Assembly (NCBI RefSeq): GCF_002025255.2
Contig: NZ_CP054587.1
Location: 2,666,001-2,730,000 of the forward strand
DNA: 64,000 nt
Direction of reading: 5' to 3'
DNA from: Halolamina sp. CBA1230
GTDB lineage: Archaea > Halobacteriota > Halobacteria > Halobacteriales > Haloferacaceae
Shown: piece after piece, positions 1,552-34,423 of the stretch
How positions within the stretch are numbered: position 1 is the first letter of the stretch
Layout of the letters: each line of letters opens with the position of its first letter
Made by a program: the position numbers and the translations under genes
The notes under the pieces: generated by a model
Told to the model about the DNA's origin: nothing
Database searches by the model: none
The model's input: the letters and a program-made list of their open reading frames with translations, nothing else

Positions 1552-3207
1552 ATGTCTGACAAAGACAGCGCGGACGTGAGTCGACGGAAGTTCCTCGGCT
1601 TCGCGGGCGCGGCGACGGCGACTGCCGTCGCCGGCTGTGGTGGCGGTGGCGGCACTGAAACCGGCACCGACGAGCCGGGTGGCGGCACCGACGAGCCGAC
1701 GGACGAACCGACCGAGCCCGGGGAGACGGCGACCGAGCGGCCGGAGCCGGAGACCCGCGACGGCTACCTCCAGCGGGCGAACCGCGTCGCCCACGAGCAG
1801 GCGCCGTGGGTGTTCCTCAACCGCCAGTACTCGGTGTACGGCAAGAGCGACGACATCGAGTGGCAGGCCCGCGCCGACGAGTTCATCGACGCGTACGCGA
1901 TCACGCCGGCGAACGACGACGGCGACGACGTGGTGATCAACCAGTCCCAGATGGACAGCGGGCTCGACCCGCAGGACCACCGCGCGACGCCGACGGACAA
2001 CATCGTGATGCAGGCGTACGAAAAGCTGCTCGACCGCGACCGTGAGGGCGGTATCCTCGAATCGCTGGCCGACGACTACAGCCGGCAGGAGAACGGTCGC
2101 GTCCGGTTCCACATCCGCGACGGCGTCTCGTTCCACTCCGGGGACAACCTCACGCCCGAGGACGTGGCGTACTCGATCAACCGGATCGTCGACCCCGAGG
2201 TCGGCATCGCCAGCCCCCAGCAGGACCAGCTCGCGGGCGTCACCGGCGCCGAAGTCGTCGACGGCGAGCGCGCGGTCGACGTGATGAGCAGCGGGCTCAA
2301 CCCCATCGTGTTCTCGCTGTTCGCGAGCTACGGCCCGATCATGAACAAGTCGTGGGTCCAGTCCAACGAGGGCTCCTACATCAACCAGAACATGGACGGA
2401 ACCGGGCCGTTCGTGCTCGAGACCTACGAGCAGGGTGTCGAAGTGGTGTTCAACCGCAACGACAACTACTGGAAGGAGGCCGCGGAGATCAGCACGCTGA
2501 CGATGCGTGCCTCCAGCGAGTCGAGCACGCGCGTGAACTCGCTGCTCTCCGAGGAGTCGGACATCATCGTCAACGTCCCGCCACAGGAAGTGAGCCGGGT
2601 GGAGCAGAACGACAGCAGTAGCATCGCCGCGGCGCCGTCGACGCGCGTCATCTTCAACGCGATGCGCTACGACGTGGAGCCGTTCGACTCCGCCGAGTTC
2701 CGGCAGGCGGTCAACTACGCGATCGACCTCGAGAGCATCGTCGAGAACGTGCTGAGCACGTTCGGCGACCAGACCGGCCAGCCCACGCTCGACGGCTACT
2801 TCGGCTACAACGGGGATCTCGACCCGTACCCGTACGATCCCGATCAGGCCGAGACGCTGGTCGAGGAGTCGGGGTACGGGGGCGTCGAAGTGGAGCTCCA
2901 CACGCCGGTGGGGCGCTACCTCAACGACGTCCAGATCGCCCAGGCGGTCGCGGGCTACCTCGACGACCTGGAGAACGTCACCGCGAGCGTGAACCAGCGT
3001 GACTTCCAGGCGCTGGCCAGCGAGGTGACCGACGGGGATATCGAGACCAGCCCCCACTGGTACCTGCTCGGCTGGGGGAACACCACGTTCGACGCGAGCC
3101 AGACGCTGATCCCGCTGCTCACCAGCGACGGGAACCTCACCAGCTGGTCCAACGAGGAGTTCGACCGGCTCGTCTCGGAGGCCCAGAGCCTGCCCAGCGA
3201 AGAGTAG
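1552..3207 (+). CDS. Peptide-type ABC transporter substrate-binding lipoprotein with circularly permuted SBP_bac_5 domain
   Basis: This is an extracytoplasmic binding protein of the DppA/OppA family (551 aa) that feeds the permeases encoded immediately downstream. The ATG at 1552 gives a Tat signal (SRRKFLGF, residues 10-17) and a lipobox ending in Cys29, followed by a Gly/Thr/Glu/Pro linker to about residue 68. The domain order is abnormal. Residues ~69-117 (YLQRANRVAHEQAPWVF and onward) match what is normally the extreme C-terminus of the family. The usual mature N-terminus (VINQSQMDSGLDPQDH) follows at about residue 122. The protein then ends at NEEFDRLVSEAQSLPSEE, exactly where the family would continue into the segment found at the front. 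Nothing is duplicated or missing, so a circular permutation is the simplest reading. The stop codon directly abuts the permease start. Confidence 0.9.
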   Translation: MSDKDSADVSRRKFLGFAGAATATAVAGCGGGGGTETGTDEPGGGTDEPTDEPTEPGETATERPEPETRDGYLQRANRVAHEQAPWVFLNRQYSVYGKSDDIEWQARADEFIDAYAITPANDDGDDVVINQSQMDSGLDPQDHRATPTDNIVMQAYEKLLDRDREGGILESLADDYSRQENGRVRFHIRDGVSFHSGDNLTPEDVAYSINRIVDPEVGIASPQQDQLAGVTGAEVVDGERAVDVMSSGLNPIVFSLFASYGPIMNKSWVQSNEGSYINQNMDGTGPFVLETYEQGVEVVFNRNDNYWKEAAEISTLTMRASSESSTRVNSLLSEESDIIVNVPPQEVSRVEQNDSSSIAAAPSTRVIFNAMRYDVEPFDSAEFRQAVNYAIDLESIVENVLSTFGDQTGQPTLDGYFGYNGDLDPYPYDPDQAETLVEESGYGGVEVELHTPVGRYLNDVQIAQAVAGYLDDLENVTASVNQRDFQALASEVTDGDIETSPHWYLLGWGNTTFDASQTLIPLLTSDGNLTSWSNEEFDRLVSEAQSLPSEE

Positions 3208-4206
3208 ATGTCCTACGGTCGGTTCCTGCTGAAGCGGGGGCTGCAGGGCGTCGTGGTGGTCTGGGGTGTGGTCACGATCGTGTTCATGCTCCGGTTCATC
3301 ACGCCGGGGAGCGCCGTCGACGCGGTTGCGCCGCTGGACGCCAGCCCCGAGCTTCGCGAACGGATCGCGGAAGAGCTGGGACTTGACCAGCCGCTGTACG
3401 TCCAGTATCTCGACTACCTCTGGGAGCTGCTCCAGGGCGACATGGGCTACTCCTACATCTCGGGGATCGAGGCGAGCCAGATGGTGTTCTCGAAGCTGCC
3501 CGCGACCCTCGAGCTCGCGGTCGTGAGCAGTATCATCGCCATCGGGCTCTCGATCCCGCTTGGTGTGATCAGCGCGACCCGGCGCCACGAGCCCGCCGAC
3601 TACGCGGCGACGACGTTCTCGCTGGTGGGGATCTCGACGCCGAACTTCTGGCTGGGGATCATGCTGATCCTGCTGCTCTCCGTGCAGTTCGGGATCTTCC
3701 CGACCAGCGGCCGCGCGTTCGGCTTCGCCGAGGCGTTCCGGATCCTGCTCAACCAGGGCCCCGGCCCCGGCGCCAACGCCATGTGGCAGTGGCTCCGGCA
3801 TATCACGCTCCCCGCGGTGACGCTGGGGACGTACTTCACGGCGCTGATCACCCGACTCACCCGCTCGGGGATGCTCGAGGAGCTGGGTCAGTCGTACGTC
3901 CGGGCGACCCGCGCGAAGGGGCTGCCCGAGTCGATGGTCCGCTACAAGCACGCGCTGCGGAACACGCTGATCCCCGTGATCACCGTGCTCGGCCTCCAGC
4001 TGGGCACGCTGATCGGCGGTGCGGTCATCACCGAGTCGGTGTTCGCGTGGCCGGGGCTGGGCACGACGCTGATCAACGCGATCAACGCGCGTGACTGGCC
4101 GATCCTCCAGGCGACGCTCGTGGTGATCGGCTCCGGCTTCGTGATCGTGAACCTCGTCGTCGACGCCATCTACGCGTATCTCGACCCACAGGTGGTCGCC
4201 GAATGA
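3208..4206 (+). CDS. dppB: ABC transporter permease, DppB type
   Basis: This 332-residue membrane protein is the first permease subunit of a peptide-type importer. It has the family N-terminus (FLLKRGLQGVVVVWGVVTIV), several hydrophobic spans and the BPD_transp_1 EAA-type loop that contacts the ATPases (YVRATRAKGLPESMVRYKHA, about residues 230-250). Length is normal for DppB. Its ATG follows the substrate-binding protein stop with no spacer, and its end overlaps dppC by four bases (ATGA), so translation is probably coupled along the operon. The true substrate cannot be told from sequence; DppB names also cover permeases for nickel, oligosaccharides and other solutes. Confidence 0.92.
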   Translation: MSYGRFLLKRGLQGVVVVWGVVTIVFMLRFITPGSAVDAVAPLDASPELRERIAEELGLDQPLYVQYLDYLWELLQGDMGYSYISGIEASQMVFSKLPATLELAVVSSIIAIGLSIPLGVISATRRHEPADYAATTFSLVGISTPNFWLGIMLILLLSVQFGIFPTSGRAFGFAEAFRILLNQGPGPGANAMWQWLRHITLPAVTLGTYFTALITRLTRSGMLEELGQSYVRATRAKGLPESMVRYKHALRNTLIPVITVLGLQLGTLIGGAVITESVFAWPGLGTTLINAINARDWPILQATLVVIGSGFVIVNLVVDAIYAYLDPQVVAE

Positions 4207-5246
4207 TCTCTCCACGAACGCTCCGAAACCTCAAGAAAGAGCTGCGATCGAGCGCGCTCGCGAAGCTGGGTATCGTGCTCGTGCTGGCGATGATCCTGGT
4301 CGCGACGTTCGCACCGTTTATCGCGCTGCACAACCCGACGAACCAGAACCTCGACGAGAACAACCTCCCGCCGCTGGGCTTCAGCCGGACGACTGAGGAG
4401 ACCTCCTCGGAGATGGTCAACGGCTCGCTCCAGATCGTCAACGAGACGGTGGAGATCAACGCTACCGCGAGCCACCCGCTCGGTACGAACTCGCTCGGAC
4501 AGGACGTCTACTCCCGCGCGGTGTACGGCGCCCGCACGTCGATGATGGTCGGCTTGCTTGGCACCGTGCTCGCGGCGTTGCTCGGGGTGAGCGTCGGCCT
4601 CGTCGCGGGGTTCTACCGCGGCCGGGTCGACGACGCGCTGATGCGCTTTGCCGACGTGTCGCTGGCGTTCCCCTCGCTGGTGCTCGCGATCTCGCTGATC
4701 GGTCTCTGGGGCCGGGCAGCCGTCGACGTGCCCGACCCGTTCGTCGCGTTGGGGCTCGTCGACCCCGTCCGGCAAGCCCTGGGCTTACCGACGGGAATGC
4801 CGGACTCCTTCGTGTTGCCGGGGACGGTGATCGTCGTCGTCGGCCTGGTGAACTGGGTGTGGTTCGCCCGGATCGCCCGCGGCGAGGCGCTCTCGATCCG
4901 CGAGGAGGAGTACGTCAAGGCCGCCCGCGCGCTGGGGGCCAGCGACACCCGGATCATCGGCCGGCACGTCCTGCCCAACGCGATCACGCCGATCCTCGTG
5001 CTCGCGACGATCCAGGTCGCGGCGATCATCCTGCTCGAGTCCTCGCTCTCCTTCCTCGGGTTCTCGGGGACGACGCTCTCCTGGGGGTTCGACATCTCCC
5101 AGGGACGCGGCTATCTCTCGACGGCCTGGTGGATCGCGACGGTTCCCGGGCTGGCGATCGTGCTCGCGGTGATCGGCGTCAACCTCGTCGGCGACTGGCT
5201 CAGGGACGCCTTGGACCCCGGTATCGAGGGGGAGGGGGGTGTCTGA
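4203..5246 (+). CDS. dppC: ABC transporter permease, DppC type
   Basis: This second permease subunit has 347 residues. An N-terminal transmembrane span is followed by an extracytoplasmic stretch of ~65 residues (HNPTNQNLDENNLPP to SHPLGTNSLGQDVYSR). The LGTNSLGQDVYSR motif is diagnostic of DppC/OppC, as is the EAA loop YVKAARALGASDTRIIGRHV (about residues 238-257). The start overlaps the dppB stop by four bases. It ends just before the ATG of the first ATPase at 5248. Together with DppB it should form the membrane channel. Confidence 0.93.
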   Translation: MISPRTLRNLKKELRSSALAKLGIVLVLAMILVATFAPFIALHNPTNQNLDENNLPPLGFSRTTEETSSEMVNGSLQIVNETVEINATASHPLGTNSLGQDVYSRAVYGARTSMMVGLLGTVLAALLGVSVGLVAGFYRGRVDDALMRFADVSLAFPSLVLAISLIGLWGRAAVDVPDPFVALGLVDPVRQALGLPTGMPDSFVLPGTVIVVVGLVNWVWFARIARGEALSIREEEYVKAARALGASDTRIIGRHVLPNAITPILVLATIQVAAIILLESSLSFLGFSGTTLSWGFDISQGRGYLSTAWWIATVPGLAIVLAVIGVNLVGDWLRDALDPGIEGEGGV

Positions 5247-5247
5247 G

Positions 5248-6438
5248 ATGGCCGACGAGATCCTGAAGGTGCGGAACCTCACGACCCGCTTCTTCACCGA
5301 GGAGGGGCAGGTCAACGCCGTCGAATCGGTCGACTTCGACGTCCGCGACGGCGAGACGTTCGGCATCGTCGGCGAGTCCGGCTCCGGGAAATCCGTCACC
5401 GCGCTCTCGCTGATCGACCTGGTGGAGACGCCGGGCCGGATCGTCGAGGGCGAGGTGTGGTACCGCGACGCCGAGCTGGCCGAGGAGCACGCCGAGTCCC
5501 ATCCCGAGGCGGTCGACGGCGACTACGTCGACGTCCGACAGCTTCCGGAGGCGACTCGGCGGTGGCTCCGCGGGCCGGCGTTCGCGACGATCTTCCAGGA
5601 CCCGATGAGCAGCCTCAACCCCTCGATCACGGTCGGCGAGCAGATCGCCGAGGCCGTCGAGGTCCAGCGGCGTGCCCGCGCGAACCCGCGGCGCACCCGC
5701 TCGCGCACCCAGGGGTACGGGCTCGCCCGGTTCGCAGCCGACGCGTTGCTCCCCTCACAGAGCTACGTCTCCGAGGAGAGCAGCGAGCGAGCGGTCGAAC
5801 TGCTCGAACGGGTCGGCATCCCCGACCCCGAACAGCGCGCGGAGGAGTACCCTCACGAGTTCTCCGGCGGGATGCTCCAGCGCGCGATGGTCGCGCAGGC
5901 GCTCGCCGGCGAACCCGACGTGCTGATCGCCGACGAGCCGACGACCGCGCTCGACGTGACGATCCAGGCCCAGATCCTGAACCTCCTCCGGGATCTCCAG
6001 GAGGAGGAGGACATGAGCGTGGTGCTGATCACCCACAACCTCGGCGTGATCGCGCGGATGTGCCAGCGCGTCGGCGTGATGTACGCCGGCGAGGTGGTCG
6101 AACGCGGCGCGCTCGAGGACGTGTTCGAGAACCCCGTCCACCCCTACACCGAGGGGCTGCTGGGGTCGATCCCGGACATCGAGGACCCCGCACCGCGGCT
6201 CTCGCCGATCGCGGGGAACGTCCCGAGCCTGCTCGATTCGGAGATGGGCGAGGAGTGTTACTTCGCCGATCGCTGTCCGAAGGCGATGGAGGCCTGCCTC
6301 AACCGCATCGACGAGCGCGAGGCGCCGTCGACGACCGACGACGAGCACCGCGTGCGCTGTGTGCTCGCCGATCGGGAGTACGACGAGTCCGAGGCGCTCG
6401 GACCCGAGGCGAAACAGGAGGTGGTCTCCCATGAGTGA
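5248..6438 (+). CDS. dppD: ABC transporter ATP-binding protein, DppD type, with helical-domain insertions
   Basis: This is an ATPase subunit of 396 residues with Walker A GESGSGKS (residues 42-49), Q-loop [11 protein letters not shown], signature FSGGMLQR, Walker [12 protein letters not shown] and H-loop ITHN. The C-terminus has the peptide-transporter oligopeptide_HPY region with cysteines ([14 protein letters not shown]). A GTG at 5239 is also in frame, but the ATG at 5248, directly after the dppC stop, is the better start. Compared with the second locus (20831-21883) it carries extra segments: about 25 residues before the Q-loop ([20 protein letters not shown] region) and about 35 between Q-loop and signature ([20 protein letters not shown] region). 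These lie in the helical subdomain that touches the permeases. Confidence 0.92.
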
Positions 6439-7915
6439 GGCCGACGACGCGCTCGTGGAGGTGCGCAACCTCCGGAAGTACTACGACGACAGTGGCGGGC
6501 TGATCGACCGCCTGCTCGGTAACGAGCAGACGAGCGTGCGCGCCGTCGACGGCGTCAGCTTCGACGTGCACGAGGGGGAGACCCTCGGACTGGTCGGCGA
6601 GTCCGGCTGTGGGAAGTCCACCACCGGCGAGACCCTCCTCCGACTGCGCGAGGCGACCGACGGCACGGTCGCGTTCGACGGCGAGGAGGTGTTCGACCTG
6701 GACGACGAGTCGCTGTCGACGTTCCGCCGGCGCGCCCAGATCGTGTTCCAGGACCCGTTCTCCAGCCTCGACCCACGGATGACCGTCGGCGCCATCGTCG
6801 CCGAGGGGATGCGGATCCACGGGCTGCCCGAGTCGGATCCGACTGTCGCGACCGACGCCGAACTCACCGTCGAGGGGGTCGACCGCACCGTCGAGATGAC
6901 GGTCGCCGACGATCTGGACCGCGTGGTCGAGCCCGAGGACGGCGTCGCCCGCATCCCGGTGACGGTCCGGACGGGCGACGACGGGCCGGAAGCCGCCGTC
7001 GACGCCCACCAAGCACTGCTCGACGCGACCGTCGAGGAAGAGAACGGCGGCCTCCACGTCGAGGTGACCGTGACGGGGTCGGACACCGAGATCCGGAACG
7101 CCAGAGCCGGCGCCTTACTCGAACGCGTCGGGCTCTCGGCCGACCAGGTGGACCGCTACCCACACGAGTTCTCGGGCGGGCAGCGCCAGCGCGTGGGGAT
7201 CGCCCGAGCGCTCGCGCTCGACCCCGAGTTCATCGTGCTCGACGAACCGGTGTCGGCGCTCGACGTCTCCGTGCAGGCGCAGGTGCTGAACCTGCTCGAC
7301 GACCTGCAGGACGACTTCGGGCTGACGTACCTGTTCATCGCCCACGACCTCTCGGTCGTGCGGCACATCTGCGACCGCGTCGCGGTGATGTACCTCGGCA
7401 AGGTCGCGGAGCTGGGGCCGACCGACCAGATCTTCGAGAACCCCGAGCACCCCTACACCGAGGCGCTGCTGGAGAGCGTCCCGCGCGCCGAGGTCGAGGA
7501 GCAGGGCCGCCGCGTGGCGACGCTTTCCGGCGACGTGCCGTCGCCGCGGGACCCGCCCTCGGGCTGTCGGTTCCGGACACGGTGTCCGAAAGTCATCCCG
7601 CCCGACGAGATCACGATCGAGCAGGACGCGTTCCGCGACGTGATGGATCTCCGCGAGGACGTCGAGGCCGAGCGCCTCGACCCCGAGGAGATCCGGGAGA
7701 CCGAGCCCGCGGCGTACCGCGAGCAGGAGATCCCCGGGATCGCCGGGGAGAACGCCGCGGTCGTCGACGAGGCGCTGGAGGCCGTCGCGAACGGCGAGTT
7801 CGAGGCGGCCGCCGAGACGCTCAGAGAGCGCTTCGAGACGGTGTGTGAGACGACGCCGCCGGACGACGAGCCCGGCGCCGACGGCGAAGTGGTGGCCTGT
7901 CACCTCCACGATTAG
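6431..7915 (+). CDS. dppF: ABC transporter ATP-binding protein, DppF type, with a ~90-residue insertion
   Basis: This is the second ATPase of the operon, 494 residues from the ATG at 6431, which overlaps the dppD stop by eight bases. Walker [11 protein letters not shown]-loop [11 protein letters not shown], signature [10 protein letters not shown], Walker [13 protein letters not shown] and switch His (IAHD) are all present, so it should hydrolyse ATP. Residues ~135-227, between the Q-loop and LLERVGLS, form an acidic, probably beta-rich insertion absent from the paralogue at 19503-20834, where the same interval is about 25 residues. The C-terminal ~95 residues are a charged extension ([20 protein letters not shown]) also seen in the paralogue. 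The insertion is unlikely to be a frame error, because the frame continues cleanly on both sides. Confidence 0.92.
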
Positions 7916-24747: not shown

Positions 24748-26631
24748 TTACTCGCCCTGCCAGTGGCTGTCGTAGGCGTCGGCGCCGCCGGGGAACACCT
24801 GCGTCGGCGTGAGGTGGTACGCCGGCGCACCGCGGCCCTTGAACACGCTCTCGACGAACTGCGGCCGGTTGATGACGTACGCCATCGCCTCACGAACCGG
24901 CTTGGGCACTTCCTGCATGTTGAACGCCACGTAGTAGGTGTTGATCGTGGCGGACTGGGCCATGTTGACCGTCTGGTCGTTCTCCAGCGGCCCGTAGGTG
25001 CCGCGCTCGATCCCGTCGACCGTCTCCTCGATGCTGACCTTGTTCGGGTCGTACTTCGAGGTCGGGATGCCGGCGACGTCGGCGTTCCCGTTCAGGAAGT
25101 AGTTGTACGACGCCGTGGTGTCGGTGATGATCGCGGCGTCGATGCCGTCGATCACGGGCTCCTGGCCGTGGTAGTCGTCGAACGCGTCGGCGGAGAACTC
25201 CCCACCGTTGCCGGACTCCCAGTTGCCGAACTCGAACGGCCCACAGCCGATCGGGTTGCTGGTGGAGAACTCCTCCCAGCTCATGTCGCCCTCGTACCCC
25301 TCGATGTCGCCCACGACGCCCTCGGGGACGACCGAGAACGCGGAGTAGGCGAGCACGGACAGCGCGAACGGGAAGCTGTCCTGCAGCGTGATCGTGAACG
25401 TGTAGTCGCCGGTGGCCTCGACGCCGGTCGAGCCGGGGACCACGTTCCCGTCCTCGTCGGTCTCGCGCACGATGTTGAGCACCGAGTTCGGGAAGTACGT
25501 GTTGCTGGAGTTGGAGGACTCCACGAGGCGGCGGATCGAGTACACCATGTCGTCGGCGGTGACCTCGCCGTAGTCGCCGTGGAACTGGATCCCCTCCTTG
25601 AGCGTGAACTCGTACTCGGTGAGGTCGTCGCTGACGCTGTAGTCGTCGACGATGAGGTTCCGGACCTCGGTGGTCCCGTTGTGGTAGTTCATCGGCGCGT
25701 CGAACATGTTCATGATCTTCCCGCCCGAGGCCGTGTTCCCCGAGGCGATCGGATCGAGCGCGCTGAACGTCGCCGAGATCTTGTCGAGGCGGTCCTTCCC
25801 TTCGAGCCCCTCGACCGAGATGTTCTCCTTCGTACGCGAGCCGCCCATCCCGCCGGGTGGGCTGTAGTCGAGGCGGTCGTACCAGAAGCTCTGGCCCACC
25901 TGGTGGTACACCGGCACCAGCGCGGCGGACTCCCAGAGCCCCTCCTCCATCTTGACGGCGGCGTCGTCACGGGTCTGCTGGGCCTCTTCGGACTGCTGCG
26001 GGTTGTTCTGGATCCGGTCGAACTGCTCGGTCATGTAGTCCCGGATGGCCGTCTCGGTCTCGGAGTCCTCCGTCCAGAACAGGTACGCGCCGTTGGGCGC
26101 CGCCCCCTCACCGTCGTAGATGGTGTTCTCGGGGTCGACCAGCTGGAGGAAGTTCTGCGGCGCCGGGTAGTCGGCGATCCACCCGAGCGTGTACGCCTGG
26201 GTGTCCCCCGTCTCGGCGTTCTCCAGGAGGCCGCTGAAGTCGGCCTCGGAGATGCTCATGTCGACGTAGGCGCTCTCGAGGCGGGAACGGATGGTGTTAG
26301 CCATCTCCTTCCACGCCGGGCTGGTGTACTGGAGCCAGTCGAGCTCGAACCGGTTGTCCGGCCCGTAGCCCGCCTCCTCCATCACCTGGCGCGCGCTCTC
26401 GACGTCGGTTTCACCGGGCGAGTACGGGTAGGAGTCGTGACCGGTGAACTCCCCGTCACCGCCCCCGCCTTCGGTCCCGGTGTCGGTGTCGGTCCCGTCG
26501 CCGCCTCCCTCGTCGGTTTCGGTCGGCGACTCGCCGCCGCCGTCGGTACAGCCGGCGACGCTGGCAGTCAGCGCGGCCGCACCAGTTGCCTGGAGGAACT
26601 TGCGTCGATCGAAATCACTTTCTTCGGGCAT
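24748..26631 (-). CDS. Peptide-type ABC transporter substrate-binding lipoprotein, circularly permuted at a second position
   Basis: This binding protein of 627 residues feeds the permeases at 21883-24524. It has a Tat signal (FDRRKFLQATG), lipobox VAGC and an Asp/Gly/Thr linker. The domain is permuted. After the linker it begins with what is normally the second half of SBP_bac_5 (YPYSPGETDVESARQVMEEA, then YTLGWIADYPAPQNFLQLVD) and runs to the usual C-terminal end (LVPVYHQVGQSFWYDRL). Only then comes the usual N-terminal half (DRLDKISATFSALDPIASGN, YEFTLKEGIQFHGDYGEVT). It stops at AMAYVINRPQFVESVF...VFPGGADAYDSHWQGE, just before the point where the family continues into the front segment. 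The start at 26631 fits a TATA-like box at 26659-26666. Confidence 0.9.
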   Translation of the reverse strand: MPEESDFDRRKFLQATGAAALTASVAGCTDGGGESPTETDEGGGDGTDTDTGTEGGGGDGEFTGHDSYPYSPGETDVESARQVMEEAGYGPDNRFELDWLQYTSPAWKEMANTIRSRLESAYVDMSISEADFSGLLENAETGDTQAYTLGWIADYPAPQNFLQLVDPENTIYDGEGAAPNGAYLFWTEDSETETAIRDYMTEQFDRIQNNPQQSEEAQQTRDDAAVKMEEGLWESAALVPVYHQVGQSFWYDRLDYSPPGGMGGSRTKENISVEGLEGKDRLDKISATFSALDPIASGNTASGGKIMNMFDAPMNYHNGTTEVRNLIVDDYSVSDDLTEYEFTLKEGIQFHGDYGEVTADDMVYSIRRLVESSNSSNTYFPNSVLNIVRETDEDGNVVPGSTGVEATGDYTFTITLQDSFPFALSVLAYSAFSVVPEGVVGDIEGYEGDMSWEEFSTSNPIGCGPFEFGNWESGNGGEFSADAFDDYHGQEPVIDGIDAAIITDTTASYNYFLNGNADVAGIPTSKYDPNKVSIEETVDGIERGTYGPLENDQTVNMAQSATINTYYVAFNMQEVPKPVREAMAYVINRPQFVESVFKGRGAPAYHLTPTQVFPGGADAYDSHWQGE

Positions 26632-33160: not shown

Positions 33161-34423
33161 ATGAACTACAACTACAGGTATCGCCTCAAGCCGACAGAAG
33201 ACCAGCGCGAGACGCTGGACTACCACCGCGATACCTGTAGACAACTCTATAACCACGCCCTGTACCGCTTCAACCAAATCCCCGAAGACGAGGGCACCGT
33301 CAAACAGCGTGTCCGCAAAATCCGTGACGAGATCCCCAATCTCAAAGACTGGTGGGATGCACTCACTGAGGTCTACTCGAAGGTACTCCAGCCCACCGTC
33401 ATGCGGGTCGCCAAGAACATCAAAGCTCTCGGAAACCTCAAAGAGCAGGGCTACAAAGTTGGTGAACTTCGGTGGAAGTCACCTCGGGAGTTCCGCAGTT
33501 TCACCTACAACCAGTCTGGCTTCGAACTCGACAAGAAGAGTGGGCAGACTGTGTTGTCGCTGTCGAAACTCGCAACCATCCCCATCGAACTCCACCGACC
33601 GCTGCCTGACGACGCCACGGTCAAGGAAGTCACGCTCAAAAAGGAGAAAACTGGCGAGTGGTTCGCCATTTTCGGTATCGAGATGGACACAGAACCGCCA
33701 GCCAAGCCACCGCTGGAGGATATTGACACTGACGAGATGGTCGGGATTGACGTGGGTATTCTGAAGTATGCCCACGACACCGACGGCACAGCGGTCGAAT
33801 CACTCGACCTCTCCGAAGAACGTGACAGGCTCGAACGGGAGCAACGGAAACTCTCCCGGAAAGAGCATGGGTCGAACAATTGGGAGAACCAACGTCGGCG
33901 TGTCGCTGAGTGCCATCTCGACATCAAGCGCAAGCGGCGTGATTTCCTGCACAAACTCTCGAACTACTACGCTCGGGAGTACGAACTGGTGGCCGTCGAA
34001 GACCTCGACGTGAAAGGGATGCTCGAATCACCGCGAAACAGCCGCAACACGGCGTCAGCTGCGTGGAATACCTTCACCGACATGCTCGAAACGAAGTGTG
34101 AACGGGAAGGCACGCACTTCGTGGAAGTTGATCCAGATGGCACCACCAAAGAGTGCGCTCAGTGTGGCGTCGAAACCGACAAACCGCTGTGGGTTCGAGA
34201 ACATTCCTGTCCTGCCTGTGGCTTCGAGGCAGACAGAGACGCAAACGCAGCGTGGAACATTCTTTCTCGCGGACTCACCGAACTAGGAGTGGGTCACTCC
34301 GAAGCAACGCCTGTGGAGACTGCGCTCCCTGTGGACACTGCGGTTGTGTCTGCAAAGCGCGTCGTTGAAGCAGGAAGCCCCTGCCTCAAGGAGCCGCCAA
34401 CGGCGGCGAGTAGGCAGGGGTAG
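33161..34423 (+). CDS. tnpB: TnpB RNA-guided endonuclease of an IS200/IS605-type element
   Basis: This 420-residue protein has the TnpB order: an N-terminal helix-turn-helix/WED-like part (MNYNYRYRLKPTEDQRETLD), then a split RuvC nuclease with Asp197 (GIDVGIL), Glu280 (VAVEDLDVKGM) and Asp360 (ADRDANAAWNI). A zinc finger (Cys332, Cys335, Cys350, Cys353) sits between the second and third RuvC motifs. All catalytic residues are present, so it may be active. TnpB cuts DNA under guidance of an RNA made from the element's right end, helping the element persist. The last 25 codons overlap the folded right-end structure. The gene looks intact. Confidence 0.95.
   Translation: MNYNYRYRLKPTEDQRETLDYHRDTCRQLYNHALYRFNQIPEDEGTVKQRVRKIRDEIPNLKDWWDALTEVYSKVLQPTVMRVAKNIKALGNLKEQGYKVGELRWKSPREFRSFTYNQSGFELDKKSGQTVLSLSKLATIPIELHRPLPDDATVKEVTLKKEKTGEWFAIFGIEMDTEPPAKPPLEDIDTDEMVGIDVGILKYAHDTDGTAVESLDLSEERDRLEREQRKLSRKEHGSNNWENQRRRVAECHLDIKRKRRDFLHKLSNYYAREYELVAVEDLDVKGMLESPRNSRNTASAAWNTFTDMLETKCEREGTHFVEVDPDGTTKECAQCGVETDKPLWVREHSCPACGFEADRDANAAWNILSRGLTELGVGHSEATPVETALPVDTAVVSAKRVVEAGSPCLKEPPTAASRQG

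Follow-up and report, generated by a model that had tools for sequence, protein, structure and literature searches.

A natural circular permutant among the SBP_bac_5 substrate-binding lipoproteins of haloarchaea

P0001, a substrate-binding protein of Halolamina sp. CBA1230, is almost certainly a natural circular permutant of the SBP_bac_5 (cluster C) family, judged from a sequence in which the segment that closes the chain of ordinary members stands at the front. Its gene lies in a window of 64,000 nucleotides (the whole stretch of DNA analysed; NZ_CP054587.1, positions 2,666,001–2,730,000). We have high confidence in an overall account in which P0001 is a working lipoprotein, permuted in a haloarchaeal ancestor, probably via duplication and trimming.

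Chain order and predicted fold of P0001

The gene and the parts of its product are as follows.

1552–3207, plus strand: P0001, circularly permuted SBP_bac_5 protein, predicted substrate-binding lipoprotein, site C, 551 aa
1552–1638, plus strand: Tat signal peptide and lipobox, residues 1–29, with Cys29 the predicted lipid anchor (sequence motif)
1639–1749, plus strand: linker, acidic and of low complexity, residues 30–66 (sequence; fast-evolving)
1750–1905, plus strand: moved segment, residues 67–118 (59–65% identity to orthologue tails; HMM positions)
1906–1923, plus strand: joint from the old C-terminus to the old mature N-terminus, residues ~119–124 (alignment)
1924–3204, plus strand: old mature N-terminus and core, residues 125–551

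The signal motif (SRRKFLG...AGC) holds both a twin-arginine motif and a lipobox cysteine, making P0001 a predicted haloarchaeal Tat lipoprotein; across an alignment of 25 permuted orthologues, R11, R12, A27, G28 and C29 are invariant. In ordinary-order orthologues the moved segment is the C-terminal 52 residues, comprising the end of lobe 2, the hinge strand and the domain I tail, and the P0001 chain ends at the point where an ordinary chain would enter it. Searching with blastp, residues 67–120 match only the C-terminal end of ordinary orthologues L029–L039 (59–65% identity, E 1e-18 to 1e-20), and the core matches the region preceding that end (60–64% identity). Mature P0001 falls on a full-length SBP_bac_5 HMM (463 positions, built from ordinary haloarchaeal members) as two reversed pieces, h426–463 then h1–423, which are complementary almost without gap or overlap, no part being absent or duplicated. 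Writing the mature sequence twice and scoring it for one linear HMM match yields a single such match for P0001 with a gain of 39.7 bits (about −3 bits for ordinary proteins), and among the 68 proteins assigned to the ordinary class not one gave reversed HMM pieces. Rotation of P0001 likewise raises its phmmer score against AccA (4zec) from 89.2 to 106.7 bits, lengthening the matched chain from 22–350 to 22–480, and against DppA (1dpp) from 95.0 to 105.5 bits, from residues 23–447 to 23–475; the rotated match extends through the moved segment in both and so counts for permutation.

An earlier note on this DNA had proposed that P0001 is a circular permutant from which nothing was lost or duplicated. 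The first point is backed by the ordinary orthologues, the HMM rotation, the phylogeny described below and the extent of the structural match; the second agrees with the complementary HMM pieces and the gain on doubling. The note had placed the front segment at residues ~69–117; its identity as the family tail stands, with bounds better drawn at ~67–118. The alignment to PF00496 that it suggested as a check turned out to be uninformative. Pfam SBP_bac_5 matches P0001 strongly (E 7.2e-67, 226.5 bits, cut-off 32.4), the native order aligning in one piece with positions 5–366 of 368. This model is confined to the family's middle part and is therefore blind to rearrangement of the ends; it was rejected as a test of permutation, and routine annotation misses the changed order of P0001 for the same reason.

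An AlphaFold model of P0001 (39 orthologues, pLDDT 76.1) predicts the three-domain, two-lobed fold of DppA and OppA, superposed up to DppA residue 453. VIA-align places model residues 125–551 on residues 1–453 of the 507 in DppA (1dpe; Z 25.2, rmsd 3.3, 420 residues), and Foldseek matches the model to a DppA-type fold with E 9.9e-27. The match leaves 54 DppA residues uncovered, against a moved segment of ~52 residues, modelled as a helix (69–83) and a strand (87–99), which should supply them. In ordinary members, as seen in AliD, the two termini both belong to domain I, in lobe 1, and lobe 2 is formed by a single uninterrupted stretch (PMC11192437); the AlphaFold2 model of P0001 and the AliD termini are each consistent with old termini that would be adjacent and new ends that would be at the surface. 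The chain would close on the usual two-lobed fold with the predicted ligand site intact. The Trp-x-x-Asp motif described in DppA (PMC6751184) is incomplete in P0001 (GWGNTT), so the motif gives no support for a dipeptide ligand.

Conserved order, operon position and origin of the P0001 type

Directly behind P0001 the window encodes an importer of Opp/Dpp type.

3208–4206, plus strand: DppB-like permease, beginning right after the P0001 stop codon
4203–5246, plus strand: DppC-like permease (ORF list and sequence reading only)
5239–6438, plus strand: DppD-like ATPase (ORF list and sequence reading only)
6431–7915, plus strand: DppF-like ATPase (ORF list and sequence reading only; start at the second in-frame Met)

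Chain order, operon position and purifying selection are all conserved for the P0001 type. The survey of homologues that the earlier note had advised finds the P0001 order in 24 further genes from independent genomes, among them Halolamina, Halobaculum and Halorubrum species. The same DppB-like permease stands next to all 25 permuted orthologues (0–111 nt away) and to 20 of 21 ordinary ones, a common neighbour from which it follows that the two forms fill the same slot of the same operon. Within the genus, dN/dS of the P0001 front segment (0.06–0.27) resembles that of the core (0.19–0.26), with dN of the linker far above that of either. P0001 is very probably a functional binding protein, predicted to serve the ABC importer encoded behind it.

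These orthologues bear on two explanations that would do away with the permutation. The junctions of P0001 sit in a stretch for which the genome holds paralogues, and an assembly or sequencing artefact could have fused two binding-protein genes, the tail of the one to the front of the other. The identical order, however, is repeated in independent Halolamina, Halobaculum, Halorubrum and other genomes at 57–91% identity, with the same permease adjacent, which leaves an artefact with practically no probability; the assembly error that the earlier note had named as fatal to its reading is excluded for this gene. Alternatively, the front segment could once have been the tail of a paralogous binding protein, with P0001 losing its own tail, which would mimic circular permutation. 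Such a fusion of paralogues was weighed by the authors of the TpMglB-2 study for that protein, the permuted part of which shows poor conservation (PMC4990184). For P0001 it is very unlikely: front segment and core are equally close to the tails (59–65%) and cores (60–64%) of the protein's own orthologues, and at E 1e-3 the front matches no other SBP_bac_5 group of the genome.

Circular permutation of P0001 itself has a direction on the orthologue tree. With sequences rotated into register, 24 of the 25 permuted orthologues form one clade (95/93) nested in the ordinary ones, the remaining one (L028) lying loosely outside, and the data do not reject a single origin of the order (p-AU 0.48). The tree of the permeases agrees in broad terms, although less clearly (p-AU 0.20 for a single clade). 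The orthologue tree makes the P0001 order a derived one, with probably a single origin.

Permutation across the SBP_bac_5 family

The earlier note treated P0001 as a single case; a second permuted protein in the window (P0002) and repeated, independent permutation within the family require that view to be given up.

24748–26631, minus strand: P0002, a second lipoprotein of the SBP_bac_5 family in the window, circularly permuted, site A
25819–26445, minus strand: moved C-terminal part of P0002, residues ~66–274, now behind signal and linker
24751–25818, minus strand: old N-terminal part of P0002, residues ~275–630, now at the end

The Pfam pieces of P0002 are reversed and its doubling gain is 110 bits; it has 11 further colinear orthologues in three families, and its own genome also encodes a homologue of ordinary order (L004). 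Its AlphaFold model (12 sequences, pLDDT 35.5) is unusable. Two more loci of the genome, L005 (P0003; 1405–3315, minus strand) and L007 (724–2508, plus strand), are permuted at site B, the P0003 type being classed by its reversed HMM pieces; doubling did not raise its score, owing to long additional segments where the pieces join. Elsewhere in the window, 33161–34423 (plus strand) is an ORF resembling a TnpB / IS605 OrfB-type protein.

Classing nearly all PF00496 hits from 15 haloarchaeal genomes by HMM order gave 42 ordinary proteins, 2 that are ordinary by Pfam only (the G100 fused pair) and 30 permuted ones, with at least one permuted protein in 10 of the 15 genomes. About 41% of the sample is thus permuted, a count to which four loci duplicating earlier ones were added by hand and from which one unclassed locus was left out, and which is indicative since 5 of the 15 genomes come from one genus. 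Over all loci the breakpoints cluster at site A (h~291–302), site B (h~316–327) and site C (h~408–428), the pieces being complementary, and most permuted haloarchaeal proteins are broken at these three sites of lobe 2. The sample of other Halobacteriota held 34 ordinary proteins and 2 rearranged ones out of 36, both from non-halophilic members of one genus: L215 (G238) clearly, and L213 (G230) weakly, the latter having weak HMM pieces and a PGF-CTERM-like tail at its end. Among the best 60 solved chains listed, all 60 are linear on the ordinary profile and none is a permuted SBP_bac_5 protein.

Site-B permutants also occur on alphaproteobacterial plasmids (L223–L228, from Nitratireductor, Roseomonas, Microvirga, Ketogulonicigenium, Neorhizobium and Maritalea). 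They lack a lipobox and carry the plain annotation of ABC transporter substrate-binding proteins, with transporter genes adjacent where annotated; these six were chosen for colinearity with P0003 and are therefore uninformative on frequency in bacteria. Together with L213 and L215 they rule out a restriction to haloarchaea. Two further candidates were rejected: Rhodococcus L211, suggested by its tblastn range, is ordinary by HMM, and L129, whose large doubling gain does not span the joint, is an ordinary protein with a split domain.

A tree of 91 representatives needs 8 changes of the order label (shuffled mean 40.8), at least 6 of them, between ordinary and the rest, forced by well-supported branches alone; with non-halophilic archaea and bacteria included the count is 10, once more with at least 6 forced, and each change may be a gain or a reversal, the two being indistinguishable on such trees. 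On this sequence-derived reckoning, permutation in the SBP_bac_5 family is a matter of several independent events at several sites. The site-B clade unites haloarchaea with the alphaproteobacterial cases, so that one event is either old or was passed between domains. L159, which has ordinary order, is placed with good support inside the site-C permutant group (L055, L062), reflecting either two independent permutations at nearly one place or a return to ordinary order.

In the established model of permutation, a gene is duplicated in frame and in tandem, the copies fuse, and both ends are then trimmed. By this route, the P0001 gene would have been permuted in the ancestor of a haloarchaeal clade: after duplication and fusion, copy one would have lost its front and copy two its tail. 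We regard duplication as the likely path. Genome G100 has a single ORF (L143/L184) in which a short linker connects two complete SBP_bac_5 domains of ordinary order, behind one Tat-like signal peptide without lipobox; this fused double is the expected first step of the duplication route, but in another lineage of the family, and no intermediate form was found in the lineage of P0001.

Anchor position and relation to known systems

Lobe 2 was placed at h~240–448 by analogy with AliD, and sites A, B and C (h~291–428) fall within it, as do all the clear breakpoints. Ordinary termini lie in lobe 1; with the new ends at these sites, anchor and linker would lead into lobe 2, in P0001 as in the other permuted lipoproteins. 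The new anchor face and altered docking suggested for P0001 in the earlier note are putative, although reasonable on geometric grounds.

Whether such a shift was selected is doubtful. An adaptive account, in which permutation was favoured for taking the anchor off lobe 1 and onto lobe 2, thereby altering receptor opening or docking, can point to clear breakpoints that all lie in lobe 2 across several independent events, to the heavy dependence of haloarchaea on Tat-exported lipoproteins (PMC2945643) and to the suggestion of the TpMglB-2 authors that a permuted topology might be suitable for binding proteins on a tether (PMC4990184). However, lobe 2 also forms the longest uninterrupted stretch and could merely be tolerant of breaks, ordinary lipoprotein orthologues work with the same permease gene, and the alphaproteobacterial site-B permutants, being without lipobox, show that anchoring is not the general cause of permutation. 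A benefit of the anchor shift in P0001 is something we would put forward only tentatively, and the wider proposition, that lobe-2 permutation was repeated and, in haloarchaea, selected for this shift, with many cases hidden under ordinary annotation, strikes us as rather improbable. Neutral fixation, given frequent tandem duplications, neighbouring termini and permuted forms that are tolerated and drift to fixation, has a somewhat better than even chance of being correct. It draws on the repeated origin at few sites, the permuted and ordinary orthologues in one operon slot, the fused tandem double of G100 and the bacterial permutants without lipobox; neutrality alone, however, leaves unexplained the ~41% seen in haloarchaea against 2 of 36 in other Halobacteriota. 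With adjacent ends and permissive lobe-2 loops, it fits the data at least as well as the adaptive reading.

Natural circular permutations are usually isolated cases of old and obscure origin. The SBP_bac_5 family offers several events and sites, a recent event at ~60% identity, ordinary orthologues that share the permease and an intermediate-like fused double, making it testable how permutations arise and also whether a folded, Tat-exported receptor is affected by the order of its chain or the position of its anchor. Changes of order escape domain models confined to the middle part of a family, and for about four in ten of the sampled haloarchaeal SBP_bac_5 proteins the altered order goes unreported in routine annotation.

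Engineered circular permutants of binding proteins, made as biosensors, indicate that bilobed proteins can tolerate new termini; these are laboratory-made and belong to other families, whereas the P0001 type is natural and conserved across genera. P0001 resembles ordinary SBP_bac_5 (cluster C) proteins such as DppA, OppA, GsiB/YliB, AccA and AliD in family, predicted fold and role, and the Opp/Dpp-type permeases and ATPases of their operons likewise stand beside it; unlike them, it starts with the last ~50 residues, placing the new N-terminus and anchor in lobe 2. In the open-access literature, which leaves most subscription journals outside its cover, we found no paper on permuted SBP_bac_5 proteins. 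A precedent is TpMglB-2 (Tp0684) of Treponema pallidum, assigned to 'cluster Bc' and likewise a natural permutant; this membrane-tethered ABC binding protein has relatives across many species (PMC4990184). TpMglB-2, however, belongs to the cluster B (type I sugar-binding) family and has another fold, whereas the profile and structure matches place P0001 in SBP_bac_5; we therefore rejected P0001 as a 'cluster Bc' protein, the likeness being confined to permutation. The permuted part of TpMglB-2 is poorly conserved and carries a large insertion, whereas that of P0001 is conserved and has close ordinary-order orthologues. TpMglB-2 thus already shows that a binding protein can be permuted in nature; P0001 and its relatives extend this to the SBP_bac_5 family, at an unexpected frequency and with several origins.
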